A stretch of DNA of 32,209 bases from Clostridia bacterium (GTDB taxonomy: Bacteria; Bacillota; Clostridia; Oscillospirales; Acutalibacteraceae): the NCBI GenBank assembly GCA_017521925.1, contig JAFXBG010000003.1, positions 1-32,209 on the forward strand, in the 5' to 3' direction. Below, in pieces: positions 3,844 to 23,708 of this stretch (position 1 is its first letter; every line of letters starts with the position of its first letter). The notes beneath the pieces were generated by a model that was not told where the DNA came from, did not search any database, and saw only the letters and a list, made by a program, of their open reading frames with translations. A program made the position numbers and the translations under genes.

Positions 3844-3852
3844 TGCTATAAT
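3844..3852 (+). promoter_or_regulatory. Extended -10 promoter for mfd
   Basis: TGCTATAAT contains a perfect TATAAT (3847-3852) with the TGN extension. No good -35 is present at the expected spacing. It lies about 100 bp before the mfd start. Confidence 0.5.
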
Positions 3853-3895
3853 CACACGAAGGTACCACCGCAATTTTAATTATTCATTTCTAAAA

Positions 3896-3932
3896 GCTCG
3901 CTGAGTACACCCCTGTGTCACTCATTGCGAGC
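3896..3932 (+). promoter_or_regulatory. Strong hairpin in the mfd leader
   Basis: Three nested stems pair around a CCCT loop: GCTCGC/GCGAGC, TGAGT/ACTCA and ACAC/GTGT. The structure ends 11 bp before the GGAGG of mfd. No T-run follows, so it looks like a leader structure affecting stability or translation rather than a classical terminator. Its function is unknown. Confidence 0.6.
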
Positions 3933-3952
3933 CGTTACCCTTTGGAGGAAAT

Positions 3953-6900
3953 ATGAAATTTATCTATGATTTATTCAAAAGTCACAAGCCTTACAATGAC
4001 CTGAGCTCTGCTTTAAATACCCCCTGTGCCGTTGCGGCTACGGGGTTGTCATCAGTTCATAAAGCCAGTGTTATATACACTCTTTGTAAGGAAAAAGCTT
4101 CCAAAGCTTTCTGCATATGTGCAGACGAAAGAGAAGCACAGACCCTTTGCGACGACCTTAAAACAATGGGAATGAAAGTGCTTTTTTACCCTTACCGTGA
4201 CTTTACCTTTCAGAATGTCAGCGGTGTGTCCCACGATGACGAAAGAAGACGTTTAGGTGTTCTAATGAGTCTGCTCAGTGAGGACTGCGACGGTGTAATC
4301 ACCTGTCCTGATGCAGCCGCTCAGTACACCATTCCAATGGCATCACTTGCCGACTCTACACTTAACCTGCGTGTGGGTAAAACCATAACCATAGAATCCT
4401 GCATAAAATCCCTTACTCTGCTTGGCTACGAAAGATGCGACGCCATTGAGGGCGAGGGTCAGTTTTCATTGAGAGGCGGTATTCTTGACTTTTTTCCGCC
4501 GGGTAATGAAAATCCCGTACGAGCCGAGTTCTGGGGCGACGAGGTTGACTCCTTAAGCTACTTTGACATTTCCACTCAGCGAAGAACCGAGGCGGTGGAT
4601 ATTGTTACGCTCTGCCCCTCTTCCGAAGTAATAATCAGCGACAGAGAAGAGTTTGCAAAGAAAATCGAGAAAAAAGCATCATACCTGAGAGCCGACTCAA
4701 CCAAAAAAGCCAAGGAGGTTTTGTACTCCGAGGCAGAACAGATACGCCAGGGGCTATACATTTCAAACCGTGATAAATTCATTCACCTGGTTTACGAAGA
4801 AACCGCCACGCTTTTTGATTATATAGACGACTCTTTCATCGGCTTTATTTCAGAGCATACTGCCGTTAAAGACAGAGTTGCATCAACGGAATTCCGCTTT
4901 TCCCAGGATATGCCTCAGTATTTTGCCGAGGGTGTTCTTTGCCGCGGTTTTGACAATTACAGCATAAGCTGGGAAGAATCTGTAGATAAGCTTTCTGAGA
5001 ACAGACTTGTGTATCTTGACAACTTTGCCCACGGTTCCTATGAGCTTCCTTTAAAAGCACTTTCCAACTTCAATTTAAGGCTTCTGCCCCCTTTCAGCGG
5101 TCAGATTTCAACCTTAGTTTCTGACCTTGACTCGTCAGACGCCGACAAATGTGCCGTTGTACTTTTGTGCAACACCAGAAAGGCCGCTGAAAACGTAGTT
5201 GACCTTCTGCGTGAGCAAGATAAAAAAGCCATTATCTGGAAGGACACAGAAGCCCTTACCAAAGGCTATATACATGTTACCGAGGGCATACTTTCGGGCG
5301 GATTTGAAATTCCCGAACAAAAATTTATGCTCTTTACCCAAAGCACAACCCAGATTAAACTCCAGAAAAAACACAAGCTTCCAAAAGACGGACAGGCAAT
5401 TTACAGCCTTTCCGAGCTGTCGACAGGTGATTACGTGGTACACACCATCCACGGCGTAGGAATTTTTGGCGGTATAACTAAGCTTGACTCCCACGGAATT
5501 GTAAAAGATTACATAAAAATTTCTTATGCAAAGGGCGACGTGCTTTATGTTCCTGTTACTCAGCTTGACTTAGTTGCAAAATATATAGGCCCTAAAGAAA
5601 ACTCTGCCGTTAAGCTTAACCGCTTAGGTTCAGGTGATTTTCAGAAAACAAAAAGCAGAGTCAAAAAAGCCGTTAAGGATATGGCTAAGGAGCTTATCGC
5701 TCTTTATCAGAAGCGAATGCAAGCACAAGGTCACCCATTTTCTGAAGATACAGAATGGCAAAGGGATTTTGAAGCTCGCTTTGAATATGAAGAAACCCCA
5801 GACCAGCTTCGCTGTGTTGATGAAATCAAGGGTGATATGGAGCGTACCTCACCTATGGACAGACTCCTGTGCGGTGACGTAGGCTTTGGAAAAACCGAGG
5901 TCGCCCTGAGAGCCGCTTTCAAGTGCGTTTCTGACTCAAAGCAGTGTGCTTTGCTTTGTCCTACTACCATACTTGCCTGGCAGCATTTTCAGACTATCTG
6001 CAAACGATTTGAGGGTTATCCCATCAGAATCCAGTTACTTAGCCGTTTCAGAAACAAAGAACAACAGGCAGAAATTCTAAAACAGCTTAAACGCGGAGAA
6101 ATTGACCTTGTTGTAGGTACTCACCGCTTAGTTCAGAAAGACGTTGAGTTCAGGGATTTAGGGCTTGTAATTATAGACGAAGAGCAACGTTTCGGCGTTG
6201 CACAAAAGGAAAGGCTTAAAGAAGCATACCCCAACATTGACGTGCTCACCCTTTCTGCCACACCTATCCCCCGAACCCTTAATATGGCTATGAGCGGAAT
6301 CCGCGATATGTCGGTTTTAGAGGAAGCTCCCCAGAACCGCTACCCTGTACAGACCTATGTTCTTGAGCACGAACAGGCAGTCATCAATGAAGCTATCCGC
6401 AGGGAGTTAAGACGCGGCGGTCAGGTTTTCTATCTTCATAATAACGTTGAATCTATAGAGGCAAAGGCGGCTCGTTTAGGCTCTCAGATTCCCGAAGCAT
6501 CCATTGGTGTCGGTCACGGAAAAATGACCGAACAACAGCTTTCAAAAGTGTGGAGCGATATGCTTGAACAAAAAATAAACGTACTTGTATGCACAACAAT
6601 CATAGAAACAGGCGTTGATATTTCTAATGCAAACACACTGATTATCGAAAATGCCGACCGTTTCGGTCTTTCTCAGCTTCACCAGCTCAGGGGCAGAATA
6701 GGCAGGTCTAGCCGACGCGCTTACGCCTACCTTACCTTTACAAAGGCAAAGGTACTTTCTGAAATTTCTCAGAAGCGACTTACTGCTATACGTGAATTTA
6801 CAGAGTTCGGCTCAGGCTTTAAAATTGCTATGCGAGACCTGGAGCTCCGCGGTGCCGGCAATATTTTAGGTGCTCAGCAACACGGCCATATGGAAGACGT

Positions 6901-7408
6901 GGGCTACGATATGTACTTAAAGCTTTTAGGCGATGCCGTTAAAGAGGAAAAGGGCGAGCTTCCCACACACCGCGAGGACAAGGACTGCCTTGTTGACCTT
7001 TCACTCGCTGCTCATATTCCCGAAAGCTACATCGAAAGCCTTACCCTCAGACTTGACGTGTACAAGCTTATTGCAGACATCCGCACAGAAGAAGATGCCG
7101 AAGATGTTGTTGATGAGCTTATAGACCGTTTTGGTGATATTCCCAAATCTGTTATGGGACTTATAGAAATAGCCTTAGTCCGTAACAAAGCGGCTGATAT
7201 GGGTATATACGAAATTAAGCAGACTGATATGAACGTACTTTTATATGTCAAAGACATCAAAAGCCCTGAAATTATCAATCTTATCTGCGAGCAAAAGGGC
7301 AACGCTTTACTAAGTGCAGGCAGTAAACCTTATGTTTCTGTCAAGCTTAAAAGCAAACTTGACCCCTTAAGTGCTTTAAGGACAGTGTTTAAAATCAACC
7401 TGTACTGA
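3953..7408 (+). CDS. mfd: Transcription-repair coupling factor
   Basis: Mfd is a DNA translocase that removes RNA polymerase stalled at lesions and recruits UvrA. The 1151 aa match the family length. The N-terminal third carries the UvrB-like region ([23 protein letters not shown]). Around residues 485-560 is the CarD-like RNA-polymerase-interacting domain ([14 protein letters not shown]). The helicase motor follows: Walker A GDVGFGKT (641-648), DEEQ (742-745), SATPIPR (768-774) and the LRGRIGR motif VI near 911-919. The C-terminus (about 1000-1110) is the TRCF domain that masks UvrA binding. The ATG at 3953 follows GGAGG. No key residue appears missing. Confidence 0.98.
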
Positions 7409-11300: not shown

Positions 11301-11741
11301 TTATTTAAACATTATAACCTTGTACTGTACACCAGTCTCGTTAAGGCAAGCTGTGTCGTTCTGACTTACCGTAAAACCTGTACCCGATGCCGAAAGACTG
11401 AGCCCCAGAGTTGAACCCAGCCCCACGTAGCCAATAGCCGAGTACATTTTATTTCCATCCGCAAAAGGCTTATTGTTTGCAAAAACCGAAAAATACCTGA
11501 ACTTTTCTGTAAGGGTTATGGTCTTTGAGCTTTCGCCTGTACCTGTGTACATATAAACCATATGAGAGTCCCTGAGATACTCTTTTTCCTCCGCGGTTAC
11601 GTGAATATTGCCGTTGTTAATGTGACTGCCCACAACAGCGTCAAGCTTTGCATTGTCGCTGTTAAAATCATTACGCATAGGTCTGTCGTTTTCAGCCCAC
11701 TGATTAAGAGAAAGGTTTGTTGTTTTATTTGTTGATGGCAT
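11301..11741 (-). CDS. Small tail-fibre-like protein
   Basis: This 146-aa protein ends the particle operon. The N-terminal half (NLSLNQWAENDRPMRNDFNSDNAKLD, then HVTAEEKEYL) matches the start of many Clostridial phage fibre or receptor-binding proteins that attach to the baseplate. The C-terminal half is Gly/Ser/Thr-rich and probably beta-structured, and could form a short tip. It is far shorter than usual fibres and no fibre-assembly chaperone follows. GGAGG precedes the ATG, which overlaps the previous stop codon (TAATG). A terminator follows 5 bp after the stop. Confidence 0.6.
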   Translation of the reverse strand: MPSTNKTTNLSLNQWAENDRPMRNDFNSDNAKLDAVVGSHINNGNIHVTAEEKEYLRDSHMVYMYTGTGESSKTITLTEKFRYFSVFANNKPFADGNKMYSAIGYVGLGSTLGLSLSASGTGFTVSQNDTACLNETGVQYKVIMFK

Positions 11742-12319
11742 TATATCTCCTCCTGAATACTATAGTCTATTTCTTTCCAGCGGTATCCTTTTTTGTCCAA
11801 GTCACCGAATGTATTATTCAAAGCATCGGAAATGCTCCAGTCAAAACCTGCAAACACCACATCAAAATTAAGATGAGCAGGCAAAAGTGCCTCTGCCTGA
11901 TACACTACCCACTCTCGTTGTGCAGTTGTCAGCTCATTTTCTGACAAATTAATTACTATACGCAAATCCTCAGGGTATTCCTCAATTATACCCTCTACTC
12001 CCATAAGCCTGAGCATTTTTTCAAAGCCTTCAGGGGTAAAGTCGGCGGTACTGAGGCTTAGTCGCTGAGTTAGCATTTCCCGTCTTTTTTTCAGGGGCAA
12101 ATCATCCTGAACACTGCCCACCATCCGTTCAAGATTTTCTATTCCGTAGGTTTCTGCCGTAGATATAAAGTTTTCTCTTAAAAGACTTTTTAGGCTATCC
12201 CTTAAAAGGTCCAGCCCCTGCGAAAACGCCGCCAGCTCAGCAAAATTAATACTGCCTTCCTTTAAGTTATAAATACCTAAAGGCGTAAGCTTCTGAATCA
12301 TAGAATCAAGAGTACTCAT
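11741..12319 (-). CDS. Baseplate wedge protein, XkdU/gpI-like
   Basis: This 192-aa protein occupies the position of gpI of P2 or YmfQ/XkdU of PBSX, which joins the baseplate wedge to the fibres. LERMVGSVQDDLPLKKRREML and GFEKMLRLMGVEG fit the DUF2313-type family. The C-terminal part, with PAHLNFDVVF (about residues 150-160), is typical too. The start overlaps the stop of the gpJ-like gene as TGATG, so translation is likely coupled. Confidence 0.75.
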   Translation of the reverse strand: MSTLDSMIQKLTPLGIYNLKEGSINFAELAAFSQGLDLLRDSLKSLLRENFISTAETYGIENLERMVGSVQDDLPLKKRREMLTQRLSLSTADFTPEGFEKMLRLMGVEGIIEEYPEDLRIVINLSENELTTAQREWVVYQAEALLPAHLNFDVVFAGFDWSISDALNNTFGDLDKKGYRWKEIDYSIQEEI

Positions 12320-13380
12320 CAGACTCTCCTTGTAACGTTAATTATTCCCGCCACAGGAAACAGGCTTTTGTCAGCAACAAAATCACTGTTGACCTGAGGC
12401 ACGAAGCTTAAGCTTTTTACGCCCTCGGTATGATACACACATTCAGAAATGTCGCACATAAGCACCTCTGAACCAACGCCTTGTCCGGATATATAATCTG
12501 TTACGTTATCAATCACTCTTCGTCTGACATCGCTGTAAGCATAGCCCTCGTTAACATCAATTTCAAGGTAAAAATCAACCGTGGCAGGACTTGCTTTTTT
12601 CACCAGAACATCAACGTTCACCTCGCGCTCTGCAGACAAAAGCTCCTGTACACTGCGAAGTGCTTCGTTTGATGCCACACTGCCCTCTGCGGCTATGTAT
12701 ACATCCACCGTACCTACGCCTCTTGCTCTGGGAACTGCGGCGGCTGAGCTGACTCCCTTAATGCTCTGAGCCTTTGCTTCATAGTAGGCACAGTTAGCAC
12801 CATTCTGAGGAAATCTTATGCTGTTCTCCACTCTTGCCCTCAGGCTTTCGTCGCTTTCTTTGTTGCAGCCTCCTGAGAAAGCCTCAGAATTTATTACTGC
12901 ATCTATGCCTGCAGGGGGAGTTACCATAAGACAGATGCGATTCTTGATTACGTTGTATTTTCTTCCCTTGTCAAGGCTTTGCGCTGTTACCGATACAGAC
13001 AACGCACCTGCTGAAAGCACCGCGTCAGCCGTAGTTTCAAACCTGAGCAAAGATGTAACATCTGCCACCACCGTGCCTTTGGGAATATTAATATTACGGG
13101 TGGCAGGCTCATTTACCGAAAAGGTAACCTCTCCTCGTGAAACTGTCGCATCCCGCCTTGTAATGCCTCTTTCTTCTGCGTGCATATCAAGGTATTCGCC
13201 CTCTGCAGTTGATACAAACATCTGCCTTCTGAGCCACTCTGTATTGACCAGATTGGAGTAAACCTCTCCTGCCAGCACCCTTAGTCTTATACCTATATCA
13301 GAGCTTTCGTCAGGAACAACACCTGAAAGCTCTGTGTATTTTTCTGTCATTCTTTTTAAAATCTCATCATAAGTCTGCAC
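12319..13380 (-). CDS. Baseplate J-like protein, XkdT/gpJ family
   Basis: The 353 aa fit the baseplate J family found in Mu, P2 and PBSX, the core wedge component of contractile baseplates. Recognisable segments are the N-terminal SDIGIRLRVLAGEVYSNL, AEERGITRRDATVSRG near residue 70, and the central beta-rich region with SGGCNKESDESLRARVE. The GTG start at 13380 follows AGGAGG by about ten bases and overlaps the upstream gp25-like gene by 14 bp. Its presence argues for a contractile-type baseplate ancestry, although no sheath gene is found. Confidence 0.9.
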   Translation of the reverse strand: MQTYDEILKRMTEKYTELSGVVPDESSDIGIRLRVLAGEVYSNLVNTEWLRRQMFVSTAEGEYLDMHAEERGITRRDATVSRGEVTFSVNEPATRNINIPKGTVVADVTSLLRFETTADAVLSAGALSVSVTAQSLDKGRKYNVIKNRICLMVTPPAGIDAVINSEAFSGGCNKESDESLRARVENSIRFPQNGANCAYYEAKAQSIKGVSSAAAVPRARGVGTVDVYIAAEGSVASNEALRSVQELLSAEREVNVDVLVKKASPATVDFYLEIDVNEGYAYSDVRRRVIDNVTDYISGQGVGSEVLMCDISECVYHTEGVKSLSFVPQVNSDFVADKSLFPVAGIINVTRRV

Positions 13381-13723
13381 TTAGCGTCACCTCCTGCTTT
13401 CTTGTTTCTGTTGAATTGCTTACAGAGATTAACAGCGAAATTCCGCCGTCAGGGGTTTTGCTGATTTTCTCAACCTCAGCGGTATATCCCCTGTTATCTA
13501 TAATAGCCTCCTGCAAAAGAAGGCTTGCATTTTTAAGGGCTTTAGGACTGTTTATGTCAATACCGGCAATTTCAGTACCCAGCGCCTTATGATACAAAAA
13601 TCTTCCTTTTCTGATTTTTGCGGAAAATACGGCTTTCTGCAACACCTCGTCTATGCCTTTTACAAAGCGATAGTCTCCAAAGCTTTCAACACATATGTCT
13701 CCGTTGATGATAAACGTATCCAT
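13367..13723 (-). CDS. Baseplate gp25/GpW/XkdS-like protein
   Basis: This 118-aa protein is of the gp25-like lysozyme-fold baseplate wedge family (XkdS, DUF2634). GDYRFVKGIDEVLQKAVFS and the RFLYHKALGTEIAG segment near residues 40-53 are typical, followed by a beta-strand region. Homologues start sheath assembly in T4-like tails, so it is notable that the sheath is missing here. The ATG overlaps the stop of the spike gene (TAATG). Confidence 0.75.
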   Translation of the reverse strand: MDTFIINGDICVESFGDYRFVKGIDEVLQKAVFSAKIRKGRFLYHKALGTEIAGIDINSPKALKNASLLLQEAIIDNRGYTAEVEKISKTPDGGISLLISVSNSTETRKQEVTLSADL

Positions 13724-14061
13724 TATGCCTCCACCTTCTTTCCGTTAATAAGCACCGAACCGTCATTTTTAAGCAAAATGCTTGCACCTCCCTGAGAATA
13801 AAGCAAAAGCTCGCCGCGGCTGAGCTTAAGGGGAGAATCAGCAACAACACCTACGCAGGCTTCTCCGCCGTCAAAGGGCACCACCACAGCACCCTCGCCT
13901 ACAGGCGGTACATAAGCAATTCCGTAAGGAGCCACCACCATAACGTCACCGTGCTGAGTAGACGCATCCACCTGCACACGGCTTGCCTGAGAAGATGTTA
14001 CACTGCCTTTTGTGGCCGTGGTTACAATTTTACCTTTATTCAAAAATGATGTAAGCCACAT
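13723..14061 (-). CDS. Baseplate spike, gpV/gp45-like OB-fold protein
   Basis: The 112 aa begin with an OB-fold-like stretch (SRVQVDASTQHGDVMVVAPYG, then PPVGEGAVVVPFDGG). They end in a short beta repeat with SQGGASILLKNDGSVLINGK, typical of the trimeric spike helix of P2 gpV and similar phage proteins. It is shorter than most gpV proteins. It lies 2 bp after the XkdQ-like gene with GGAGG before its ATG. In a particle it would form the puncturing tip beneath the hub. Confidence 0.7.
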   Translation of the reverse strand: MWLTSFLNKGKIVTTATKGSVTSSQASRVQVDASTQHGDVMVVAPYGIAYVPPVGEGAVVVPFDGGEACVGVVADSPLKLSRGELLLYSQGGASILLKNDGSVLINGKKVEA

Positions 14062-14063
14062 AG

Positions 14064-14972
14064 CTATTCCTCCTTTTTAAGAATCCTGAGCTTGGTATAT
14101 TCGCCTTTTTCGTCTGCCGTATACCTTACCGACGTCACATAATACTCTTCAGGGTTATCCGTAAGCAACACTGTTTTGCCCAAGGCATCACCCAAAAATC
14201 CGCGGCAGACTACATCAGCATAAAAGCTTTTCTTTTTTGCTTCGTCAAAAATAATATCGGCATCCTTAACGCTTGAACCATCTGACGCAAGGTTTATGTA
14301 TCTTACCTTGTTTATACCCTGATTTTCCGCACCTGCGTCAGACACAAAGGTATTATACCCTTCGCCGTCTTTGTATTTGAAATACACCCTCGATACCCTG
14401 TTACACCTGAGATGCACCACCCTCATGTCTAAAACAGGTATACCGTTTTTTCCAAACTCCAGCACATCTTCGCTTTTTACACCTTCAATAAAAAGCTCGT
14501 CCCCTCTGCATTTAGGAAAAACTGAGTATAGTGCCATGGCAAAACGCCTTATTGCCGTATAGCAGGATATGCCCTTTTCCACCGTAAACCGTCCGCTGTA
14601 AATCCTGTTTTCGCCTTTAAGTTCCTTAAACCCAAAGGGTTTTGCGTAGCGGTCAAAAATATCTTTAGCCGACGGATTCACAAAGCTCATAGGGTAAGCC
14701 TCGCTGTCAATAAGCCGTGCAGAGCTGTCACGGGCAATAACTTCCGTATAAGATTTTTTACCGAAAATCTCAGTCTGCTCGTCAATTTCTCCGCTGAAGA
14801 CAAGGGTGCCTTCTCTGAAAAGCTCCACCTTTGTCAAAACGGGGAAACCCATACCTTTAATTTTCAATGTAACACTGTCAGCAGGTACATCGTCCTCTAT
14901 ATCCATAACAATACTCATGGGTGTTTCTTCTGTTACTCTGCCGTTTATATCTGTCAATAAGGCTTTCAACAT
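14064..14972 (-). CDS. Baseplate hub, XkdQ/gpD-like protein
   Basis: This 302-aa protein has the hub pattern of PBSX XkdQ and P2 gpD. The N-terminal beta-domain has DSVTLKIKGMG and FREGTLVFSGEIDEQ. A LysM-adjacent central domain contains IFDRYAKPFGF and KGISCYTAIRRFA, and the C-terminal part ends YYVTSVRYTADEKGEYTKL. Such hubs connect the end of the tail tube to the spike. The ATG at 14972 overlaps the LysM gene by 7 bp. It is intact. Confidence 0.75.
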   Translation of the reverse strand: MLKALLTDINGRVTEETPMSIVMDIEDDVPADSVTLKIKGMGFPVLTKVELFREGTLVFSGEIDEQTEIFGKKSYTEVIARDSSARLIDSEAYPMSFVNPSAKDIFDRYAKPFGFKELKGENRIYSGRFTVEKGISCYTAIRRFAMALYSVFPKCRGDELFIEGVKSEDVLEFGKNGIPVLDMRVVHLRCNRVSRVYFKYKDGEGYNTFVSDAGAENQGINKVRYINLASDGSSVKDADIIFDEAKKKSFYADVVCRGFLGDALGKTVLLTDNPEEYYVTSVRYTADEKGEYTKLRILKKEE

Positions 14973-15481
14973 ACCTTTATCTCCTTAATGTTCTCAAGCT
15001 CGTCAGGACGACGCACATAAGGGTTAAGCTTAACCAGAAAATCCACAGTTACGCCATAATTATAGGCAATATCAAAAAGAGTTTCGCCGGGATTTACTTT
15101 GTGGATAATTTCTGTCACCTTATTATTTTCACAGCTTGCTTCGTCAAACTGAAAACTGTAGCTTATGGTATCGGGAGTAGGGTCAGCAAGAACAGAGAGC
15201 TTTGTAAACATCGCCTTAAAGGGCTTTTCAAAAGGCAAGGAAAGTATTCCCTTGCCACCCTCTGACTGCAACGAATACAACTTTGCGTACTGCTCTACGC
15301 AGTCCTTGCCCGACAGCACGCCCTTACCCTTAACAGTTCTGCATTTTCTGCCTGTATACTCTTTGAGCTCACCGCTGTAAAGCAAGTTATAGTCCGCAAC
15401 GCCCTCTTCGCTTATAATCTCCAAAGACAAAGGATTACACCAAAGAGTAAAACCTTTGAATCTCATTAATGCCGTTTCCAT
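14966..15481 (-). CDS. LysM baseplate protein, XkdP-like
   Basis: This 171-aa protein has an N-terminal beta-domain (MRFKGFTLWCNPLSLEI, KGVLSGKDC) and a C-terminal LysM motif (about 124-171: HKVNPGETLFDIAYNYGV and FLVKLNPYV). In PBSX-type phages the equivalent protein joins tape measure and tube to the hub and may touch peptidoglycan. Here no tape-measure gene precedes it; the gene directly upstream is the 38-aa ORF. AAGGAG lies before the ATG. Family assignment rests on the LysM and the position. Confidence 0.75.
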   Translation of the reverse strand: METALMRFKGFTLWCNPLSLEIISEEGVADYNLLYSGELKEYTGRKCRTVKGKGVLSGKDCVEQYAKLYSLQSEGGKGILSLPFEKPFKAMFTKLSVLADPTPDTISYSFQFDEASCENNKVTEIIHKVNPGETLFDIAYNYGVTVDFLVKLNPYVRRPDELENIKEIKVC

Positions 15482-15492
15482 ATTACCACTCC

Positions 15493-15609
15493 TTACTTTT
15501 CAAACTCCGCCGAGTATCGTCTGCTGTCACGTTGAAGCTCACGACTTAAAACTTCTGCCGCGGTTTCTTCGTATATCTCATCGGTTCCCCGCTGAAAATC
15601 AGTATTCAT
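15493..15609 (-). CDS. 38-aa small ORF at the position of the tape-measure gene
   Basis: This small gene starts with ATG at 15609 behind GAGGTG and ends with TAA at 15493. It overlaps the end of the 246-aa gene by 11 bp and stops 11 bp before the LysM gene. The product, MNTDFQRGTDEIYEETAAEV then LSRELQRDSRRYSAEFEK, is highly charged and likely one amphipathic helix. I recognise no family. The neat coupling to both neighbours supports a real gene. It sits exactly where tube chaperones and tape-measure genes usually are, so it may be a tiny tail-length or assembly factor, or the leftover of a larger gene. Confidence 0.6.
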   Translation of the reverse strand: MNTDFQRGTDEIYEETAAEVLSRELQRDSRRYSAEFEK

Positions 15610-16339
15610 CCTGCACCTCTTTTTCAAAAAACGTCATACTTTCTGCCGTAATATCATAGATAAAGGTCACTTCTCCGGATTGGGTCTGCACTCTGTTAAG
15701 CTTGCTTACACAGCAACCACAGTAAACTTCTGTGAAATTACCAAAATCAAACTTAAGTTCAGAGCTTCCGTGGATTTTTAAAAACATTTTTGTTTTAAGC
15801 TTTATATTAAAGTCTGTCTTACCTGTATCTGAGATTCTGTACCCGTTTAAAAGCTCAGGCTTTTTCTCAACTGCAGCAGTGCTTGCAACTTCAAAAGAAA
15901 CAAGGCCATTAAACAAAGCATCATCAACATACAGCTGACACCCTGCATCTGTAACATTTACATCCTCAACCTTTATTACAATATCGGTAAAAAGTGTACC
16001 GCTTGTGTCAAGGTATCGAGGCTCGCTTATCTCTATCCGGCTTATTCTTAAAGACTCATTTATTGCCTCAGCCACCCACTGTGACATCTCAGAAAGCCGC
16101 TTGCCCCCTGCCCCTGTGGGGGCAAGAAGGCAAAGCTTGACTTCTGTGGTAAATCCGAAGGTTGAGTTTGAATATTGGCTGTTATACTCAGACTTGCCAA
16201 TACCAATGCAAAGAGTAAACGAGCAAACAGGGTTTTCTGCAGCATTACGGTTTCTGGAATAAACACAAGCCACACCGCTTAGCTCTTCCTTTGATTTCAC
16301 CGCATTTACTATAGCTTTTATAATACTGTCAGTCTTCAT
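15599..16339 (-). CDS. Two-part neck/tail protein, possibly tail terminator fused to a tube-like domain
   Basis: This 246-aa protein sits where tail-completion and tail-tube genes are expected. Residues about 1-105 (helix, then beta-strands, ending VAEAINESLRIS) fit the size and layout of tail-terminator or completion proteins. Residues about 105-246 (QLYVDDALFNGLVSFEVAS, KMFLKIHGSSELKFDFGNF, GEVTFIYDITAE) look like one beta-sandwich or barrel, as in tube or baseplate-ring proteins. The fusion reading is inference. ATG at 16339, behind GAGGAGG, is preferred over the longer frame opening at 16387. It overlaps the upstream connector by 4 bp. Confidence 0.5.
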   Translation of the reverse strand: MKTDSIIKAIVNAVKSKEELSGVACVYSRNRNAAENPVCSFTLCIGIGKSEYNSQYSNSTFGFTTEVKLCLLAPTGAGGKRLSEMSQWVAEAINESLRISRIEISEPRYLDTSGTLFTDIVIKVEDVNVTDAGCQLYVDDALFNGLVSFEVASTAAVEKKPELLNGYRISDTGKTDFNIKLKTKMFLKIHGSSELKFDFGNFTEVYCGCCVSKLNRVQTQSGEVTFIYDITAESMTFFEKEVQDEY

Positions 16340-16689
16340 AAAACGTCCTCCTCTTTGTGCCTGACGTAAGGCGAAAGCACCGCCCATACATAAACAGGCT
16401 TTGACGACATCGTCACGGTTTCGCTTCTTTTTAAAACAAACTTTTTTTCCTTTGCCTCAAAAAATGCTGTACCAAGCACAGGCAGCTTTACATCCGCAGG
16501 GCAGATAAGCAGGTAATTGCCGCTGTCAAACAAGCCCTGGGGCAACTGCTCACCGCCTAAATAAAGCTTGTTTTTGTAAAGCAAAGGCTCAAGAACACCT
16601 ATAAAACTTGTTTTACCCTCTTCTGTGGTAACAGTAATCCTTTCGCCGTATTTTTTCAGCTCATTAAAAACACTGCTGTAAATGCTCAA
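16336..16689 (-). CDS. Head-tail stopper-like protein
   Basis: This 117-aa protein follows the adaptor gene and has a beta-rich composition (ERITVTTEEGKTSFIGVLEP, LKRSETVTMSSKPVYVWAVL), as in head-closure or stopper proteins. The TTG start at 16689 has GGGAGGG about seven bases upstream and overlaps the adaptor stop codon (TTGA). The longer frame to 16749 is shadowed by the adaptor gene and has no ribosome site. Assignment rests mainly on position and size. Confidence 0.55.
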   Translation of the reverse strand: MSIYSSVFNELKKYGERITVTTEEGKTSFIGVLEPLLYKNKLYLGGEQLPQGLFDSGNYLLICPADVKLPVLGTAFFEAKEKKFVLKRSETVTMSSKPVYVWAVLSPYVRHKEEDVL

Positions 16690-17054
16690 GCCTTTACCCT
16701 CCCGAAGTAAAAACCTTCGTCGCAAAGCACGTCCGAAAGGCCCTTGCACTCTTCTTCAAAAAGTCTTTTTGCTACACCGAGCTTTTTGTCGCTTATGGTA
16801 ACCTTAACCTCACCTGCAGAAAAACTTTCGGGCTCGGTTGCAGAAATCAGCAAACAGTATTTGTAAAAAGCAAGTGCACCAGCTGCGTAAGCAAGTCTTA
16901 AACGTTTGCCGTCAGAAAGACTTTCCTCAGGCACCTTAAGTCTTCCCCTTACATCTTCCAATGCCTCTTTGCAAAGTTCCTGATAACGGCTTAAGTCTTT
17001 GCCATCAAGTGAGCTTAACAGCTCAAAACGTCTTAAAACATCGTAAAAACTCAA
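16686..17054 (-). CDS. Head-tail adaptor protein
   Basis: This 122-aa, mostly helical protein lies directly after the capsid gene, the usual place of the gp6/gp15-type adaptor that docks on the portal. The segment LRLAYAAGALAFYKYCLL (about residues 52-69) and the helical N-terminus fit the family's four-helix layout. The ATG is close behind GAGGTG. It ends in a TTGA overlap with the stopper-like gene. Confidence 0.6.
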   Translation of the reverse strand: MSFYDVLRRFELLSSLDGKDLSRYQELCKEALEDVRGRLKVPEESLSDGKRLRLAYAAGALAFYKYCLLISATEPESFSAGEVKVTISDKKLGVAKRLFEEECKGLSDVLCDEGFYFGRVKA

Positions 17055-17069
17055 GCACAGTCACCTCTC

Positions 17070-18080
17070 TTAGTATGTAAGCTTCTTAGCGGCGTCCTTG
17101 TAAATTTTTGCAAAACCTGCAATAGATGTAATGGCGGCACGTTCAAGCTGACGGTCAATAAGCTTGTCGTAATCAGTTACAACTTCGCCTGCGACCACCA
17201 TTTCAAGAGCACAGTTTTTATCCATACCGATAATAAGGTCATCAGGTACCGCCTGAGTATGAATAAGCTTTGCACCTAAGGGTGTAACCATTTTGCCTGT
17301 GCCGTGGAAAGCCTGACCTGCATTAGAATCCTTAAGCTCGGTAGTTTCAAGAAGCTTCTGCATAGCGGTTGTGGGAGCTAAAATTGTGTTAAGCTCATAA
17401 GGACTTAAAGTTGCCCAGAGTGAAATAAGGTCAGAATATGAAAGCTTACCTGACTCTTTTGCAGTAATGCCGTCACAGGGGTTAGAGTTGCCGTCGCCGT
17501 TTAAAAGCACATCTACTGCATCCTTAAGCTGAGCACGTGCAATATAGGCACCAATCTGCTTAAGAGTGACGGTGAAAAGGTCAAGTCGCTGAAAACGTAA
17601 AGCCTCGTAAGAAGAAACAAGCATTCTGCCACGCTTCTTAAGCTTTACAAGATTTTCCTGAGTGCTTACCTTGGTTTCGGGAATATATGCACCCTCGTTT
17701 ACTACAAGAAGATTCTTGTCATCATCTGAGGGAGTAGAAGTAATGCTTCTGTAATCCATACCTGTAATCATTGTCTTTGTAGCAACAATATCAGAAAGCA
17801 CGTCGGCTTCTTCAATACCCTGGCGTACTGCACGACTTACATACTCGGGAAAAAGTGCGGCAGAGTCCGTAGTCTGGAAAAACTTTTCAACCTTGTCGGA
17901 TGCTTTACCGCTTACCTTGATATCAAAACGCTTGAGCTGACGGGAAAATGCGTCTAAACCCTCAAGCTCTGTACCGATATAATTTGCAGAAGGGTCAAGC
18001 TCCTCTAAAACCTGAGTCATACTTTTGCTTCTGTTTGCGTACATACCTTTTTCTAAAGAAATATTTTCATAAAATGCCAT
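17070..18080 (-). CDS. Major capsid protein, HK97-like
   Basis: This 336-aa protein is placed after protease and decoration genes, as expected for the major capsid protein. The segment FFQTTDSAALFPEYVSRAVRQG near residues 87-108 is the start of the conserved capsid core. The C-terminal part (GAKLIHTQAVPDDLIIGMDK, AAITSIAGFAKIYKDAA) is typical of HK97-fold capsids of Clostridial phages. The frame is uninterrupted and well supplied with a GGAGG ribosome site. The N-terminal 80 or so charged, helical residues could be a delta region removed by the protease. Confidence 0.85.
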   Translation of the reverse strand: MAFYENISLEKGMYANRSKSMTQVLEELDPSANYIGTELEGLDAFSRQLKRFDIKVSGKASDKVEKFFQTTDSAALFPEYVSRAVRQGIEEADVLSDIVATKTMITGMDYRSITSTPSDDDKNLLVVNEGAYIPETKVSTQENLVKLKKRGRMLVSSYEALRFQRLDLFTVTLKQIGAYIARAQLKDAVDVLLNGDGNSNPCDGITAKESGKLSYSDLISLWATLSPYELNTILAPTTAMQKLLETTELKDSNAGQAFHGTGKMVTPLGAKLIHTQAVPDDLIIGMDKNCALEMVVAGEVVTDYDKLIDRQLERAAITSIAGFAKIYKDAAKKLTY

Positions 18081-18096
18081 ATTAGCATACCTCCAA

Positions 18097-18429
18097 TTAA
18101 AGAATTACTCCGATAGTGTCTGTGCCTGTCATAACAACAAGGTATTCTCTGCCGTTTGTGTCAGACTTAAAAGCTTTGTCGGATGCCGCAGAAAGTGTCT
18201 GAAAACCTACATTTACAGAACCCGTAACAGGGATTTCTGCATAGCCGCAAAGCTTAACTGCCGCATAGCCGTCTCTTACATTTACACAAACGCCAACCAC
18301 CTTGTCGCCAACCTCACAGGCTGATACGGTGTTGTCATCAATAAGCTTTAAAAGTGTACCTTTTTCTACTGTAGAGTCAGCCTCAAAGGTCACTGTATTA
18401 TCATAAAATCCGTTAAAACCGATGTTCAT
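18097..18429 (-). CDS. Capsid decoration-like protein
   Basis: This 110-aa, all-beta protein lies between protease and capsid genes. The pattern STVEKGTLLKLIDDNTVSACEVGD followed by VVGVCVNVRDGYAAVKLCG resembles small capsid-decoration or DUF2190-type proteins that bind the outer capsid. GGAGGTAATAT precedes the ATG. Function is inferred from position and fold pattern. Confidence 0.6.
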   Translation of the reverse strand: MNIGFNGFYDNTVTFEADSTVEKGTLLKLIDDNTVSACEVGDKVVGVCVNVRDGYAAVKLCGYAEIPVTGSVNVGFQTLSAASDKAFKSDTNGREYLVVMTGTDTIGVIL

Positions 18430-18441
18430 ATATTACCTCCG

Positions 18442-19419
18442 TTAAATTGTAAATTCTCTGTTCTCTGCGATTTTGCTTTTTGCTGCCTTGCTTTTGCAAA
18501 GCTGAGGCTTAAGAGGAAAAACTCCCTCAGCCTTTTTAGAAAAAGCCGCAATAAACTCCTTAAGGCTCTTTGTATCAAGACCCGTTGTTGCCGCCTTTAC
18601 GGCGGTGTCAGAAATCTCAGGCTCTAAAAGTGCCATAAGTCTTGTAAATTCTGCCTCTAAGCTTTTTCTGTATTCCTTGCCGGCTTTTGCATCTTTTTCA
18701 AGGTCTCTGATATAATCAAAAAGCTTTTCGCACTCTGCCTTGGTTAAGGCAACCTCTTTTCTTTTTTCGAGGCTTTTCATAATACCTTCCATAGTTTTTT
18801 CATTCCTTCCGTTAAGCTTTTTAAAGGACTTCGTAACTCCTGCTTCACGTTGTGCAGGCACCGCCACAAAGCTCCATTCGTAAGCATCATAAGGGTTCAT
18901 AAGCTCTGCAAAGCAAAGCTTGCCGTCATACGACTTGCCTTTCTGATGATTACAGCCGTGACTTTCAAAAGGCTTGCCGCAGATTGAACAAAGACTCTCC
19001 TCTACCGCACAGCCTACGCTTACCTCTTTTCTTATACCGCTGTCAATAGACAAAATGGTCTCGCGGTTGCCGTCGGTAACAGGAATATACGCCCTTGCTG
19101 CAAGCCTGAAATAATCATCTCCTGTAGCGGTTTTTTTGCCCTCTACAGCTTCAACCCTACACTTAAAAATACGTGCAGTCTGGTTTTTGCTGCGGCTTTC
19201 GTGGTCTACAATACCTGTTTTTCCTACAAAAAGCTTTTCAAGTTCAAAAAGAGCCTCAACAGTAAAGCGTTCAAAATCCCTGTCAATGTCGTTATCGCAA
19301 AGTGTCAGGGAAAACACATACACTTCCTCAGCTTTAAACTCGCGTCTGGTGTATTTGTTAATAAGCTCAAGCTCCTCGTCAGTAGGAATTGAGTTTAAGT
19401 TTCTTTTATCTTCTGTCAA
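18442..19419 (-). CDS. Prohead protease with Cys/His cluster and scaffold-like tail
   Basis: The 325 aa combine a U35-type prohead protease domain (about 30-195) with a helical C-terminal half that probably acts as scaffold. Candidate catalytic residues are His73 (IVDHESRS) and Ser134 (KEVSVGC). Between them and the end of the domain is a cluster Cys144-X2-Cys147-X8-Cys156-X-His158 with Cys169, which looks like a zinc site and is familiar from some Clostridial phage proteases. The start is TTG at 19419, behind TTGGAGG and overlapping the portal stop (TTGA). The protease would trim the capsid protein during maturation. Confidence 0.85.
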   Translation of the reverse strand: MTEDKRNLNSIPTDEELELINKYTRREFKAEEVYVFSLTLCDNDIDRDFERFTVEALFELEKLFVGKTGIVDHESRSKNQTARIFKCRVEAVEGKKTATGDDYFRLAARAYIPVTDGNRETILSIDSGIRKEVSVGCAVEESLCSICGKPFESHGCNHQKGKSYDGKLCFAELMNPYDAYEWSFVAVPAQREAGVTKSFKKLNGRNEKTMEGIMKSLEKRKEVALTKAECEKLFDYIRDLEKDAKAGKEYRKSLEAEFTRLMALLEPEISDTAVKAATTGLDTKSLKEFIAAFSKKAEGVFPLKPQLCKSKAAKSKIAENREFTI

Positions 19420-20558
19420 ATTTTCGCCTCCAACTTCTGCTCAAGACTCTTTGCCTCGGCATTTATTTTTCTTGCCTTTGCAAGCTCCACCTCATCCATA
19501 AGGCTTATGTTGTTCCACTTAACCTCAAAGGGTGATGTAATACCCATAAGTCTTAAATGCATAGAGCAGATTTTCTTTATTACAGGTGTTAAAATGCTTC
19601 TGAAATACTCAAGCTCACTGGTTAAAATATCCGCCTGCACACTGCTCATACGCTCTGTGCTTGACCATGAGAGACCCAGTAAAAAAGGCGGAATAGAAAG
19701 CTTTGACACAATCTGCTCCAGAATATGCTTCAGAGGCACATCGCACTCAAGCTCCTGATTGTCAGCACCTATTACCTTAATGCCCACATCACCCACACAG
19801 ACAAAGTCGTAAACACCTTTAGGGTCACGCATTGCCTTGCTCCACTCATTCGCTATAACCCTTGCTCTTTCCTCAGGGTTGATTACACCCCCCTCAGGCG
19901 GCTTGTAGGTTACTGCGTAGCGGATATTACCTATACGGTCAAAATTTTTACCGATAGAACCGAAAATCTTAAGCAGAATTGAACTTGCAAAAGGAAGTCC
20001 CCTGAGTATGGGTGTACCCTGCAAAGTACCTGCTGAGGGTGATAAAAGCGAAACCGTCATAAACTCCTGAAAAGGAAGTTCAACGCTTTCACCCACACCT
20101 TTTTTACAAACCTTTACATCCAGAGGTGACTCACCCTCTTTAAGCTCTATATCCTCAAGAGGTGCATTGTAAAGTGCGTAAACTCCTCTTAAGTTGCTTA
20201 AGGGAATCATCTCACCCACTGCCTCACCAAAGGTAAGCAAATCCTCAAGATAACTCCATACAAAACTTTGTAATCCTGTGGACGTACCGCCTACTCTGAC
20301 GTTTTCAGAAAAATCTTTTAATGCCTTCTCGCATCGGGGTGATACTGATGTAAGCTCAAATTCACCTGTAAGGCGGACAATCTTTGAGATAGCCGCATCA
20401 ATAATTGGCACTGCCTCTCTGAGGGCTTTGTACATTTCTCTTTCGGCAAAAGCCGACTGTCGTGATAAAGCCGTGAAAGGATGTGCCGAATAACTGCCGC
20501 TTTGTGCCGTCTGCACCGCGGCATACTGTGCTTTATTTTTTTTAGAAAATAACCTCAC
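19416..20558 (-). CDS. Portal protein
   Basis: This 380-aa portal forms the DNA entry ring and is the docking site for terminase. Family signs include LTFGEAVGEMIP (clip/wing), VIGADNQELECDVPLKHILEQI and the motif KLSIPPFLLGLSWSSTERMSSVQAD with the stem-helix region after it. The frame stays open to 20597, but GTG at 20558 is chosen because AGGAGG lies at the right distance. It then overlaps the end of the large terminase gene by 17 bp. Length is at the short end for portals. Confidence 0.85.
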   Translation of the reverse strand: MRLFSKKNKAQYAAVQTAQSGSYSAHPFTALSRQSAFAEREMYKALREAVPIIDAAISKIVRLTGEFELTSVSPRCEKALKDFSENVRVGGTSTGLQSFVWSYLEDLLTFGEAVGEMIPLSNLRGVYALYNAPLEDIELKEGESPLDVKVCKKGVGESVELPFQEFMTVSLLSPSAGTLQGTPILRGLPFASSILLKIFGSIGKNFDRIGNIRYAVTYKPPEGGVINPEERARVIANEWSKAMRDPKGVYDFVCVGDVGIKVIGADNQELECDVPLKHILEQIVSKLSIPPFLLGLSWSSTERMSSVQADILTSELEYFRSILTPVIKKICSMHLRLMGITSPFEVKWNNISLMDEVELAKARKINAEAKSLEQKLEAKI

Positions 20559-21813
20559 AGCCTGTCCTCCTGTCAGCGGCAACCACAAAAACACCATCGT
20601 CGCCGCTATTTAAAATAGTTGTGACAAAATATCTTATATCGTCCATTGCATGGTCATTTTCCTTAACGGGTACATCGTCACCGCTTGAAGCCCAGCGATA
20701 AAGCGAAAACTCCCTTACCGAATCAACGCAGTTTTTACATATTCTTATCCTGCCTTCTTTAAGCTGTGCCGAAACCTGCCTAACTCCGTCTGTAACCGAG
20801 TTTTTTGCAGGTATTACGTAAAGCTCTCCCTTGCGTTTAATAAGCTCTATAAAGCTCGCCGCCGAAGGATCTACCACCACACTTCTGACCCTTCTGCCTG
20901 CTATAAGCTTTTTCAGAGCCTGATAATACTCTTCGTCTGTACGCTGAGCACCCTCACGCTTAGAGCTGTAATAATACTCGTCAATTCTGTACCACACATC
21001 CTCCTTTTTACCCCAAAGCCCGAAGGACGCAGGATTAACAGTGCCATAGTCACAACTGACACAGTAATCCTCAAAAGGAGGCTCGGGTTTATCCCAGAAG
21101 GCATCCTCACTTGCCATAAAGGGATACACCGCACCTTCAAGCTCTACCCATTCGCCCTTGATAAACCGTCTGTAAAAGGTACCGCTGTAAAGTCTTTCGT
21201 ACCTCTCTCTGGTCTCCTGGCTCAAAGATGGGTTATCCTTCATAGTAAAATGAAGGTAGAGGGCGTTTTTTTCCTCTTTCTTTTTAATCCATTCCTGATA
21301 AAACCAATGGGCAGGGTATTCGGGGTTGCAATTAAACCAGAATTTGGAGCCTGACACCGAGCATCTTGCCAGAGCCTGCTCAACGAACGACCGGGGCATC
21401 AGGGCAACCTCGTCAAGTAAAACCCCGCTTAACGTCATACCCTGAATAAGTGATGCCGAAGTCTCGTCCTTACCGCCAAAAAGGTAAAAGCGGTTAACCC
21501 TTCCCCGATAAGAAACGATAAGCAGATTTGAGGAAACCTTATCCTCCACATCAAATCCCAGACTTTTAAGTACCGGCAGTATAGGACTCACAACATTTCG
21601 CCTTGCTGAGCGTATCGTCTTTGAGCATATGGCAAAAGAAGCATCTGAAAATCGGTAAAAAGCCCAAGCAATGAAAGAAATTCCCATTACAAAGGTTTTA
21701 CCCGATCTCACCGCTCCGTCGCATATGACTGCATCACGACTCTTATCCTTTGAGTCCTCACACCACCAGCTCATTACCCTGAGCTGACGCTCTGAAAGTT
21801 TCTCGATTTTCAA
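20542..21813 (-). CDS. Large terminase subunit, PBSX family
   Basis: TerL powers DNA packaging and cuts the packaged DNA. The 423 aa show Walker A DGAVRSGKT (32-40), Walker B GVLLDEVALMP with Asp134-Glu135, and the coupling motif FWFNCNPEYPAHW (158-170). The RNase-H-like nuclease acids lie at Asp255 (SCDYGT), Asp315 (VVVDPSA) and Asp391-Asp392 (HAMDDIRYF). Both the motor and nuclease sites look intact, which argues that packaging is still under selection. The start is TTG at 21813, with AGGA upstream and TTGA overlap with the small subunit. Confidence 0.95.
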   Translation of the reverse strand: MKIEKLSERQLRVMSWWCEDSKDKSRDAVICDGAVRSGKTFVMGISFIAWAFYRFSDASFAICSKTIRSARRNVVSPILPVLKSLGFDVEDKVSSNLLIVSYRGRVNRFYLFGGKDETSASLIQGMTLSGVLLDEVALMPRSFVEQALARCSVSGSKFWFNCNPEYPAHWFYQEWIKKKEEKNALYLHFTMKDNPSLSQETRERYERLYSGTFYRRFIKGEWVELEGAVYPFMASEDAFWDKPEPPFEDYCVSCDYGTVNPASFGLWGKKEDVWYRIDEYYYSSKREGAQRTDEEYYQALKKLIAGRRVRSVVVDPSAASFIELIKRKGELYVIPAKNSVTDGVRQVSAQLKEGRIRICKNCVDSVREFSLYRWASSGDDVPVKENDHAMDDIRYFVTTILNSGDDGVFVVAADRRTGCEVIF

Positions 21814-22298
21814 AGTTTGTCTTCCTGCTCTTTCTCGCTTAATGCTCTGGCCGAGCGGCTTATAGCTTCATAAAAAGAAACTGCCCCGTCGCCGCTCTCG
21901 CCTTCGCTAAGTTTCTCCAGAGCCTTCATACGGTCAAAGAATTTAATCTCCATAGACCCGTCCTTGGGTCTTTTGATTTCCGATACCGAGTAAAGGTCCA
22001 TTTTTCTTAAGGTATCGGGAGTAGGCTTCTCCATATAAAGCAGAGACACCGCATCGGCAATACTGCCGAAAGCAAGCCGCTGATATCCCACCGCCGCCAT
22101 CTTGGACATTGACTTTCTCTGCAAAGAGCAAAGTCTGGCGATTTCGTCGGCTATGTCTGTTCTGGACAAAAGCTCGTTGCCTGTCTTTGACAAATCCCCG
22201 TTAAAGCCCGCCTCTTCGGCTGCTGCTTTAGGGTCGGCAAGACTTAAATACAACCTGCAAAATTCTTTTTCCCTTGATGAAAGACCTTTTCTTTTCAT
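21810..22298 (-). CDS. Small terminase subunit
   Basis: This 162-aa protein begins with KGLSSREKEFCRLYL and LADPKAAAEEAGF, the helix-turn-helix DNA-recognition start of the terminase small subunit family, followed by helical oligomerisation segments. It selects the DNA to be packaged. AGGAGG precedes the ATG, and it overlaps the large subunit by 4 bp. In most gene transfer agents the small subunit is reduced or altered; here it appears full length, which leaves sequence-specific packaging possible. Confidence 0.85.
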   Translation of the reverse strand: MKRKGLSSREKEFCRLYLSLADPKAAAEEAGFNGDLSKTGNELLSRTDIADEIARLCSLQRKSMSKMAAVGYQRLAFGSIADAVSLLYMEKPTPDTLRKMDLYSVSEIKRPKDGSMEIKFFDRMKALEKLSEGESGDGAVSFYEAISRSARALSEKEQEDKL

Positions 22299-23042: not shown

Positions 23043-23708
23043 ATGCCAAAAATAAGATATGAAGAGAAAATAGCAGCAATAAAAGAATACCAAGCAGGAA
23101 AAGGAAGCTATGCCAAAATAGCAAAGAAATACGGAATAGGTACAACGACATTAAGAGATATGGTAGGGCAGTATGAGTCACAAGGGTTAAGAAAAAGCGG
23201 AAGAAAAACGTATAGCGAAGAAATGAAAGCAGAAGCGGTAAAAGAATATCTGTCTGGAAAAGGAAGTCAAGAAGAAATATGTAAAAAGTATAAAATCAGA
23301 AGCAGAACTCAGCTCAGAGAGTGGGTAATGTGGTATAATGGTCATACTGAGCGTCATAAGTTAAGCTCAGCCAAAGGAGAAATATATATGACCAAAGGAA
23401 GAAAGACCACACAGGAAGAAAGAGTAAAAATTGTAGCTTACTGTATAGAACATGGAAAAGATTACAGATTAACCGCAGAGACCTACGAGGTGAGTTACCA
23501 ACAAATCTACTCTTGGGTAAAGAAATACGAAGAAAAAGGAGTAGAAGGTTTAACAGACCGCCGAGGTAAAGCAAAACCCGAAAGCGAATTAAGCGAAGCT
23601 GAAATACTTCGACAGGAAAACAGGATATTACAATCAAAGATTAAAGATCAGGAAATGGAGATAGCTTTGCTAAAAAAATTGAGGGAGCTGAGAGGAGGCG
23701 GTTGGTAA
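23043..23708 (+). CDS. IS150-type transposase OrfA (HTH and coiled coil)
   Basis: This 221-aa DNA-binding subunit is longer than many OrfA proteins. Three successive helix-turn-helix units start near residues 1, 54 and 115 (IAKKYGIGTTTLRDMV, ICKKYKIRSRTQLREWV, TAETYEVSYQQIYSWVKKY). A leucine-zipper coiled coil (about 180-216) follows. It recognises the IS ends and joins with OrfB. AAGGGG precedes the ATG. A run of seven A's at codons for two lysines near its end provides a slippery site into the OrfB frame. Confidence 0.92.
   Translation: MPKIRYEEKIAAIKEYQAGKGSYAKIAKKYGIGTTTLRDMVGQYESQGLRKSGRKTYSEEMKAEAVKEYLSGKGSQEEICKKYKIRSRTQLREWVMWYNGHTERHKLSSAKGEIYMTKGRKTTQEERVKIVAYCIEHGKDYRLTAETYEVSYQQIYSWVKKYEEKGVEGLTDRRGKAKPESELSEAEILRQENRILQSKIKDQEMEIALLKKLRELRGGGW
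23672..23678 (+). promoter_or_regulatory. Probable -1 frameshift site joining OrfA and OrfB
   Basis: Seven A's lie within CTA AAA AAA TTG of OrfA. The -1 frame from here has no stop and leads into OrfB, giving a fused OrfAB product. Programmed -1 slippage at A-runs is well established for IS3 elements; use of this one is inference. Confidence 0.6.

Follow-up and report, generated by a model that had tools for sequence, protein, structure and literature searches.

What kind of particle, if any, is encoded by a set of phage genes that holds a packaging machinery, a capsid and a baseplate of the contractile type, and no sheath? This question is raised by a gene cluster lying in a stretch of DNA of 32,209 nucleotides (hereafter, the window), which is one contig (JAFXBG010000003.1) of the 1.4-Mb, 72.6% complete assembly GCA_017521925.1 of a Clostridia bacterium from the order Oscillospirales. 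On the minus strand, 17 tightly coupled open reading frames (ORFs) run between positions 11301 and 22298, as a first, sequence-only reading of the window had described them. The available data indicate that this is probably a phage-derived particle cluster kept by the host lineage, most likely a gene transfer agent (GTA)-like element, the particle of which would have a non-contractile stub tail, a single ring long, attached to a baseplate of the contractile type. The element is probably old and inherited with its host; the term GTA-like is used since it is known from its genes alone. Below, L designates regions and loci, G genomes, f families and g genera.

The tail region of the cluster and of its sheath-bearing sisters

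No sheath, chaperone or normal tape measure gene was found between the connectors and the LysM gene, in agreement with the sequence-only reading. That reading also counted the tube among the missing parts, and here it has to be corrected, a tube domain being apparently present in the C-terminal half of the 246-aa protein that occupies this space together with a 38-aa ORF. A tail module elsewhere on the chromosome, for which the same reading had asked, was considered and rejected: the sheath family PF04984 was found in 1 of 60 same-genus genomes, and there at another place, and the tape measure family PF10145 was not found in the window's own, incomplete assembly.

The 246-aa protein appears to be a terminator-position protein (N-terminal half, 15953..16339, minus strand) fused to a tube protein (C-terminal half, 15599..15952, minus strand; the boundary is approximate). 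Two neighbouring genes are found instead in 38 of 46 typed regions, the fused form in the other 8, and the fusion state changes four times on the tree. Sequencing errors are an unlikely source of the fusions because, for three of the four groups with a fusion, at least two separate assemblies show it. The terminator role is drawn from position. For the tube, a profile was built from split tube halves together with that of the window; it matches the protein at the tube position in a sheath-bearing sister form of the element (hhalign E 2.6e-13, 115 columns). It should be noted that the tube identity of this sister protein rests on its place after the sheath, and that its PHROG matches are unnamed or labelled 'virion structural protein'. 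Neither the tube nor the terminator profile had a useful match among solved structures, and the match of the tube profile to the tube-position protein of the Clostridioides myophage CD2301 was marginal (E 0.057 over 29 columns).

In the sequence-only reading, the 38-aa ORF (15493..15609, minus strand, RDSRRY motif) is one of the two occupants of this space. Its position and its profile matches now suggest what it may be. The ORF found at this place in all 44 genus regions ends like ERDSRRYxRALxEEEEA (by eye, with some variants, e.g., L022), and in the sheath-bearing form the protein at the tape measure position ends RDARRYDGGFxL. The length of this protein lies between 113 and 265 aa in 21 of the 24 loci with a sheath; two have no motif ORF and that of L320 is spurious. 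A motif scan had a hit in 115 of 164 sheathless loci and in 22 of the 24 with a sheath; since it selects ORFs on the motif, it provides lengths and no proof. An independent test was made with a profile trained on the 44 genus ORFs only, at least one of which (L052) is a wrong frame. Among 28,277 ORFs of 99 other loci, it had 40 matches at E ≤0.1, of which 39 immediately precede the LysM gene and 9 are in sheath-bearing loci, at the C-terminus of the long protein; at E 1 there were 51 matches, 48 before the LysM gene and 14 in sheath-bearing loci. Because the genus profile finds the C-termini of long proteins before LysM, the best interpretation of the 38-aa ORF is that of a putative baseplate end of a tape measure, devoid of its ruler part.

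The following mechanism can be proposed. The small and large terminase subunits (TerS and TerL) would fill a small head with chromosomal DNA of the host. Because terminator and tube are fused 1:1, a longer tube could not be accommodated, and the neck would end in a single ring of each; with the tail length fixed in this way, no ruler would be needed beyond the short peptide, which may plug the tail or anchor it at the baseplate. The baseplate, with its spike, hub and LysM protein, would bind the wall of a relative, and DNA would pass without contraction. The release (lysis) genes would be located elsewhere.

Where such a tail came from can be approached through relatives outside the genus, for which nine regions from other genera of the window's family (f1), five from family f14 and seven from family f26 were mapped. 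Extra genes lie between the terminator position and the LysM gene in all five f14 and in two of the seven f26 regions (L313-L317, L319, and L320, all of the same order). They encode a 335-366-aa sheath, a 124-129-aa tube and proteins at the chaperone and tape measure positions. The sheath is recognised by PF04984 in L314 (5.1e-14), by phrog_279 tail sheath in L316 (5.8e-45), and in L319 by phrog_279 (6e-26), with PF04984 below its cut-off (0.0021). In the sheath-bearing L315, a Phage_holin_4_1 gene follows baseplate I, a hint at an ancestral lysis module.

On a tree of 56 rows built from TerL, portal and capsid, in which head-only rows were counted as sheathless, the sheath state changes three times, a count that, like that of the fusion changes, cannot by itself separate gain from loss. 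One supported clade unites 22 sheathless rows, namely the genus, eight of the nine other f1 rows and one virome record. A second clade is made up of the f14-type rows, which bear a sheath; the remaining rows with a sheath belong to neither clade. Given that a contractile-type baseplate is retained in the sheathless form, the natural interpretation is that the sheath was lost in an ancestor of most of f1. The internal deletion that the sequence-only reading had kept in mind did occur in this sense, only long ago and not in this genome alone.

Within f1, further states are seen by eye in other genera. In L309 (6795-7523, cluster orientation), the stopper-position protein is fused to a tube-like domain and there is no separate terminator; L307 and L308 seem to have neither terminator nor tube, and L312 has kept the terminator position alone. 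In family f26, the regions L318, L321, L322, and L069 have head and connector genes and hub-like genes, without a match to spike, gp25, J or I. The scenario that we favour for the whole, at somewhat better than even probability, is that of a host-inherited GTA lineage, spread order-wide in Oscillospirales-type gut bacteria, whose contractile tail was dismantled stepwise. The sheath would have gone in the ancestor of most of one family, the tape measure, initially of 113-265 aa, would have been reduced to an anchor peptide about 30-60 aa long, and terminator-tube fusion would have arisen several times, fixing a one-ring tail. In other genera, a stopper-tube fusion would have formed, or both the terminator and the tube would have disappeared, so that the baseplate docks almost directly on the neck.

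Inheritance, selection and occurrence in relatives

Comparison of the cluster with the host RpoB protein was possible for the 23 genomes of one genus that had all the data, out of 30 RpoB loci. When the tree of the cluster (TerL, portal, protease-position protein and capsid) is set beside that of RpoB, 16 of 20 splits are common to both (with shuffled labels, mean 0.25 and maximum 2 in 500), and the corresponding distances are correlated (Mantel r 0.915, p 0.0001). The match is strong, not perfect, and the structural cluster is inherited vertically with its host. The base composition of the cluster also tracks that of its flanks (GC content, r 0.90 for 30 genus regions and 0.99 for 17 regions from other genera and families).

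Values of dN/dS near 1, which the sequence-only reading had named as a sign against its view, were not seen. With the Nei-Gojobori method, applied to 16 genes with 6 to 11 usable pairs each (saturated pairs and the 38-aa ORF left out), the per-gene medians range from 0.06 (TerL) to 0.23 (gp25), the highest single value being 0.37. The 16 measured genes are thus under purifying selection, the most constrained being TerL, capsid and portal (medians 0.06-0.09). Vertical inheritance and purifying selection, both features of a GTA, were found here, and no mobility gene was recognised. The view that the cluster is a selected short-tailed particle is supported by these values and by the gene order in relatives.

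These results bear on two other explanations. According to the first, the cluster would be what is left of a prophage in decay, intact in this genome by chance, which would agree with the lost sheath and with the fact that no lysogeny, replication or lysis genes were recognised. This explanation is strongly disfavoured: the same form recurs across the genus and in most of f1, the tree within the genus resembles that of RpoB, and dN/dS is low in all 16 measured genes. According to the second, the host would have kept the particle for another job, such as killing relatives or delivering a protein in a PBSX-like manner, any packaged DNA never being injected. The gene order, which equals that of CD2301 minus sheath, chaperone and tape measure, and the retention under selection of a baseplate with spike and LysM protein are both compatible with it. 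However, contractile killing needs a sheath, a gene almost missing from the genus, and the strongest constraint lies on TerL, capsid and portal. We consider this second explanation unlikely, though the most serious of the alternatives, and retain a GTA-like element as the better account.

How widely is this form distributed? The TerL search covered 59 same-genus relatives. Sixty regions were fetched, 52 of which are same-genus clusters, so that the genus map comprises 53 regions with the window; regions that stop early mostly do so at a contig end. A strong TerL match was obtained in 55 of the 59 relatives (three had none and one only a weak match). In 54 of these 55, TerL is of the cluster's own type, two of them (G029 and G058) being contig-end pieces outside the fetched set. 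The 55th (G051, 54% identity), the only TerL found in that genome, stands in another setting (L070) with no other cluster gene. A second TerL, 54% identical, was also seen in G030 (L071), without other cluster genes. Among the 53 genus regions, the capsid is present in 49, the LysM gene is reached in 44 and all 15 scored core genes are found in 39. In every one of the 44 assessable regions, the capsid-to-LysM spacing is 1504-1664 bases (between open frames), without a sheath.

At the scale of the order, the capsid profile was found in 101 of 395 genomes, all at least 90% complete except the window's own. By family (denominators counted by hand), these are 51 of 60 in f1, where one match (G378) is a 59-residue fragment only, 28 of 59 in f14, 20 of 57 in f26 and 2 of 219 in all others. 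A further survey brought together 162 loci: the best 80 of at least 585 stretches with capsid relatives in named genomes, the best 80 of 235 in IMG/VR, and two phage records. Among the best 80 from named genomes, the closest capsid (91%) comes from the metagenome assembly of a Ruminococcus sp. from roe deer; the labels of the remaining 79 loci are, e.g., Ruminococcus, Ruminococcaceae, Oscillospiraceae, Anaeromassilibacillus, Clostridia, Clostridiales or 'bacterium', and the source, where titled, is mostly herbivore gut. Capsid and LysM gene are both present in 127 of the 162 loci, 110 sheathless and 17 with a sheath, and their spacing is 350-1930 bases in the former versus 3160-4091 in the latter, with nothing between. 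Among these top-ranking loci, a sheath occurs in 0 of 72 from named genomes versus 17 of 54 from the viral collection. Close relatives with a full tail module, the finding that the sequence-only reading had named as able to overturn it, were therefore not seen in these 72 loci, nor in the 44 genus regions. A recent deletion in a single genome was rejected on the sheathless spacing of those 44 regions and of the 110 among the 127 further loci.

The presence of such capsid genes in viral collections raises the possibility of a phage satellite with its own head and a borrowed helper tail, or of a phage still moving between hosts. Apart from the 235 IMG/VR stretches, it could call upon the phage-like contig L207, which carries a capsid gene of the element's type (10001-10981, 69% identical to that of L302). 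By eye, this contig also has its own protease-like gene and another capsid-like gene, different from the first. However, no phage-type integrase was recognised among the window neighbours searched, the host flanks are recurrent (see below), the tree is vertical, the element has its own baseplate, and there is almost no sheath in the genus to borrow. We regard a satellite or moving phage as very improbable. Because inheritance is vertical and the element has no recognised mobility gene, the GTA-like half of the earlier 'GTA-like or satellite-like' proposal is favoured over the other. As for L302 (16085-22203), it is a human-faeces 'Bacteriophage sp.' record (MT835508) with the head-and-connector form of the element; it looks largely like host chromosome because rnf-like and ribosomal-protein-like genes flank the element (by eye).

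Other parts of the cluster and its chromosomal place

The packaging-capsid-baseplate set announced by the sequence-only reading is confirmed by family matches for most parts (Terminase_2, Terminase_6N/6C, portal, Phage_capsid_4, LysM, Mu Gp45 spike, baseplate J and I). The hub, fibre, two connectors, protease-position protein and 246-aa protein are named by position, their family matches being nil or weak, and gp25 has a sheath-initiator fold match under that family's cut-off. The order of head, connectors, LysM, hub, gp25, J and I is that of a contractile, PBSX-type element, as judged against CD2301, where the hub is unannotated.

All genes of the cluster are on the minus strand. TerS (162 aa, 21810..22298) matches Pfam Terminase_2 over residues 7-131 (2.5e-10). 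TerL (423 aa from a TTG start, 20542..21813) matches Terminase_6N (5.8e-19), Terminase_6C (2e-5) and phrog_2 (2.1e-51). The portal (380 aa from GTG, 19416..20558; a longer ATG frame starts at 20597) matches phrog_30703 portal (7.2e-113). The next protein (325 aa, 18442..19419) stands at the protease or scaffold position; its match, phrog_16951 (1.8e-94), is of unknown function, and a protease role is proposed from position. It is followed by a small, decoration-like head protein (110 aa, 18097..18429; phrog_4588 virion structural protein, 3e-14) and by the major capsid protein (336 aa, 17070..18080; Phage_capsid_4, 3.1e-16; phrog_3922, 4.7e-98), the profile of which had no match among solved structures. 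Connector 1, at the adaptor position (122 aa, 16686..17054), and connector 2, at the stopper position (117 aa from TTG, 16336..16689), have homologues at the same place in relatives, and position alone suggests their roles.

Beyond the tail genes, the LysM protein (171 aa, 14966..15481; Pfam LysM, 8.8e-7; DNA_circ_N weak, 0.016) is a putative baseplate or hub-adaptor protein. The baseplate hub (302 aa, 14064..14972) has no strong family match and is assigned from position and conservation. Then come a spike-like protein (112 aa, 13723..14061; Phage_Mu_Gp45, 7.4e-6) and the gp25-like baseplate protein (118 aa, 13367..13723; Sheath_initiator, 7.6e-5, below cut-off). The EPR motif of gp25 was rejected as a marker of sheath use: by eye, it is missing from both the sheathless and the sheath-bearing form and is uninformative in this respect. 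Baseplate J (353 aa, 12319..13380) matches phrog_6 (9.9e-62) and the solved baseplate protein TRI-2 (CD1371; 1.5e-22), and baseplate I (192 aa, 11741..12319) matches phrog_521 tail protein (8e-15). The run ends with a fibre-like protein (146 aa, 11301..11741; phrog_33092, weak, 1.1e-5) that has homologues in 27 of 61 regions.

On one side of the cluster lie the host genes mfd (3953..7408, plus strand, TIGR00580), pth, prs and glmU. Three further proteins are encoded in the interval from mfd to the cluster: two are unassigned, and the other is a dockerin protein with a starch-binding CBM26 domain below cut-off (9509-11122), which adjoins the cluster. Dockerin and CBM26 proteins are a feature of amylosome-forming Ruminococcus. 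On the other side are a tRNA-Trp and an IS3-family transposase pair (23043-24598), near the start of the cluster and judged separate from it; gerA, which flanks the cluster in relatives, was not seen at this place. Further on (24994-25641), a low-GC stretch encodes an ABC transporter ATPase like lantibiotic-protection subunits (below model cut-off). Integration at the tRNA-Trp was rejected, this tRNA being found in none of 60 other regions, that of the near relative L021 included.

The chromosomal place recurs in relatives. The mfd flank is found in 18 of the 30 genus regions with enough downstream sequence and the spore germination gene gerA in 25 of the 43 with enough upstream sequence. When regions long enough on both sides are considered, 9 of 25 have both flanks and 19 have at least one. 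Beyond gerA are two Gate-domain genes, each in 17 genus regions, which we take to be SpmA/B-like. In another genus, L305 has the same mfd-side genes as the window (by eye), and an HflX-like GTPase flank is common to L307, L308, L309, and L311, from four further genera (one checked with Pfam, the rest by eye). No phage-type integrase or lysis gene was recognised among the window neighbours searched, as the earlier reading had it, and no replication, integration or excision genes accompany the cluster, either among these neighbours or in relatives (by eye and with few family searches).

Another possibility is that the cluster is incomplete and that a second locus supplies lysis and perhaps tail or receptor-binding genes. 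It is suggested by analogy with FpGTA of Faecalibacterium, made of two operons (I and II) (Borodovich et al., 2026; PMC12946183), and by the fact that no lysis genes adjoin the window cluster. Against it, no ubiquitous partner was found: the one holin family searched, PF05105, as found beside L315, occurs in 17 of 60 genus genomes. A two-locus arrangement of this kind seems quite improbable; it would be compatible with a GTA-like element and differ only in completeness.

Several points weigh against a GTA-like element with a one-ring tail. Packaging and transfer of host DNA are deduced from genes, and the one-ring tail follows from the logic of the fusion. Lysis genes were not recognised next to the cluster, and the PF05105 holin just mentioned, from the single family searched, is far from general. 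Cluster-type TerL is missing in 5 of 60 genus genomes, among them G057, rated 100% complete. Nearest neighbours agree with RpoB in only 12 of 23 genomes. The mfd flank is missing in 12 of 30 and the gerA flank in 18 of 43 genus regions, and 6 of the 25 long enough on both sides have neither. L312, a sheathless f1 row, falls outside the main sheathless clade. Finally, the TerS of FpGTA is said to lack an obvious DNA-binding domain (PMC12946183), whereas that of the window keeps most of Terminase_2.

If the GTA-like interpretation is true, the cluster is an inherited, intact set of virus-particle genes that points to a host-kept particle possibly moving DNA between cells, and not to a broken virus. 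Many Ruminococcus-like gut bacteria would then carry a candidate machine for moving chromosomal DNA, in view of the 51 of 60 f1 genomes with a capsid match. The relatives would also offer a natural series for the shrinkage of a contractile tail, with testable predictions on tape measure length and ring number.

Comparison with known systems

The nearest published case found is FpGTA (Borodovich et al., 2026; PMC12946183). Its head-packaging operon is present in all twelve Faecalibacterium genomes examined; host DNA is packaged and there are no replication genes. The particles are about 40 nm in size, contain about 9 kb of DNA and have no identifiable tail. Operon I has ten ORFs with podovirus-like parts, and baseplate and lysis genes are in a second locus. 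The window element resembles it, at the level of genes, by the bacterial order, a head-packaging operon and the lack of replication genes; it differs, judging from the published description, in having the baseplate in the same operon. The same report describes GTA-like DNA packaging in faecal particle fractions of this order and, in Ruminococcus callidus, GTA-like packaging of 4.6 kb with no cluster assigned (PMC12946183). Elements of the window type would provide gene-level candidates for order members without a named cluster; that they explain cases like R. callidus is only a suggestion.

A conserved packaging cluster that resembles FpGTA operon I in gene sizes and order (by eye) was observed in genus g71 of family f26 (L340 and L343-L349). 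L340 is 95.7% identical over 81% to the human-faeces record MT835662, and five other regions of this genus (L341, L342, and L350-L352) have a second conserved phage-like cluster. In this g71 packaging cluster, gene roles other than TerL are guessed, and its likeness to the window is limited to a distant TerL, so that this order may contain two or more separate GTA-like lineages.

RcGTA of Rhodobacter combines a small head with a short tail and a baseplate, one stopper ring and one terminator ring, five tube rings and a tape measure of little over 200 residues (PMC7296036). It differs from the window element in having a separate tube protein and siphovirus-like folds (PMC7296036).

With CD2301, the likeness is in the order of capsid, small proteins, LysM, XkdS/gp25, J and tail component, sheath, tube position, chaperone position and tape measure being placed before LysM in the myophage. 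The window element has no sheath, chaperone or long tape measure, and its tube is fused to the terminator. The PBSX structural module has the same gene order as the CD2301-type module. There is also a likeness with the sister elements of f14 and f26, in which homologous head, connector, tube, LysM and baseplate genes stand in the same order, with sheath, chaperone-position and tape-measure-position genes added. Among the papers listed by searches of the open-access PMC literature (no preprints), none described such an element in its title or in the opening of its abstract. By its anatomy, the element is a module of the Clostridioides myophage type minus its sheath, chaperone and ruler.

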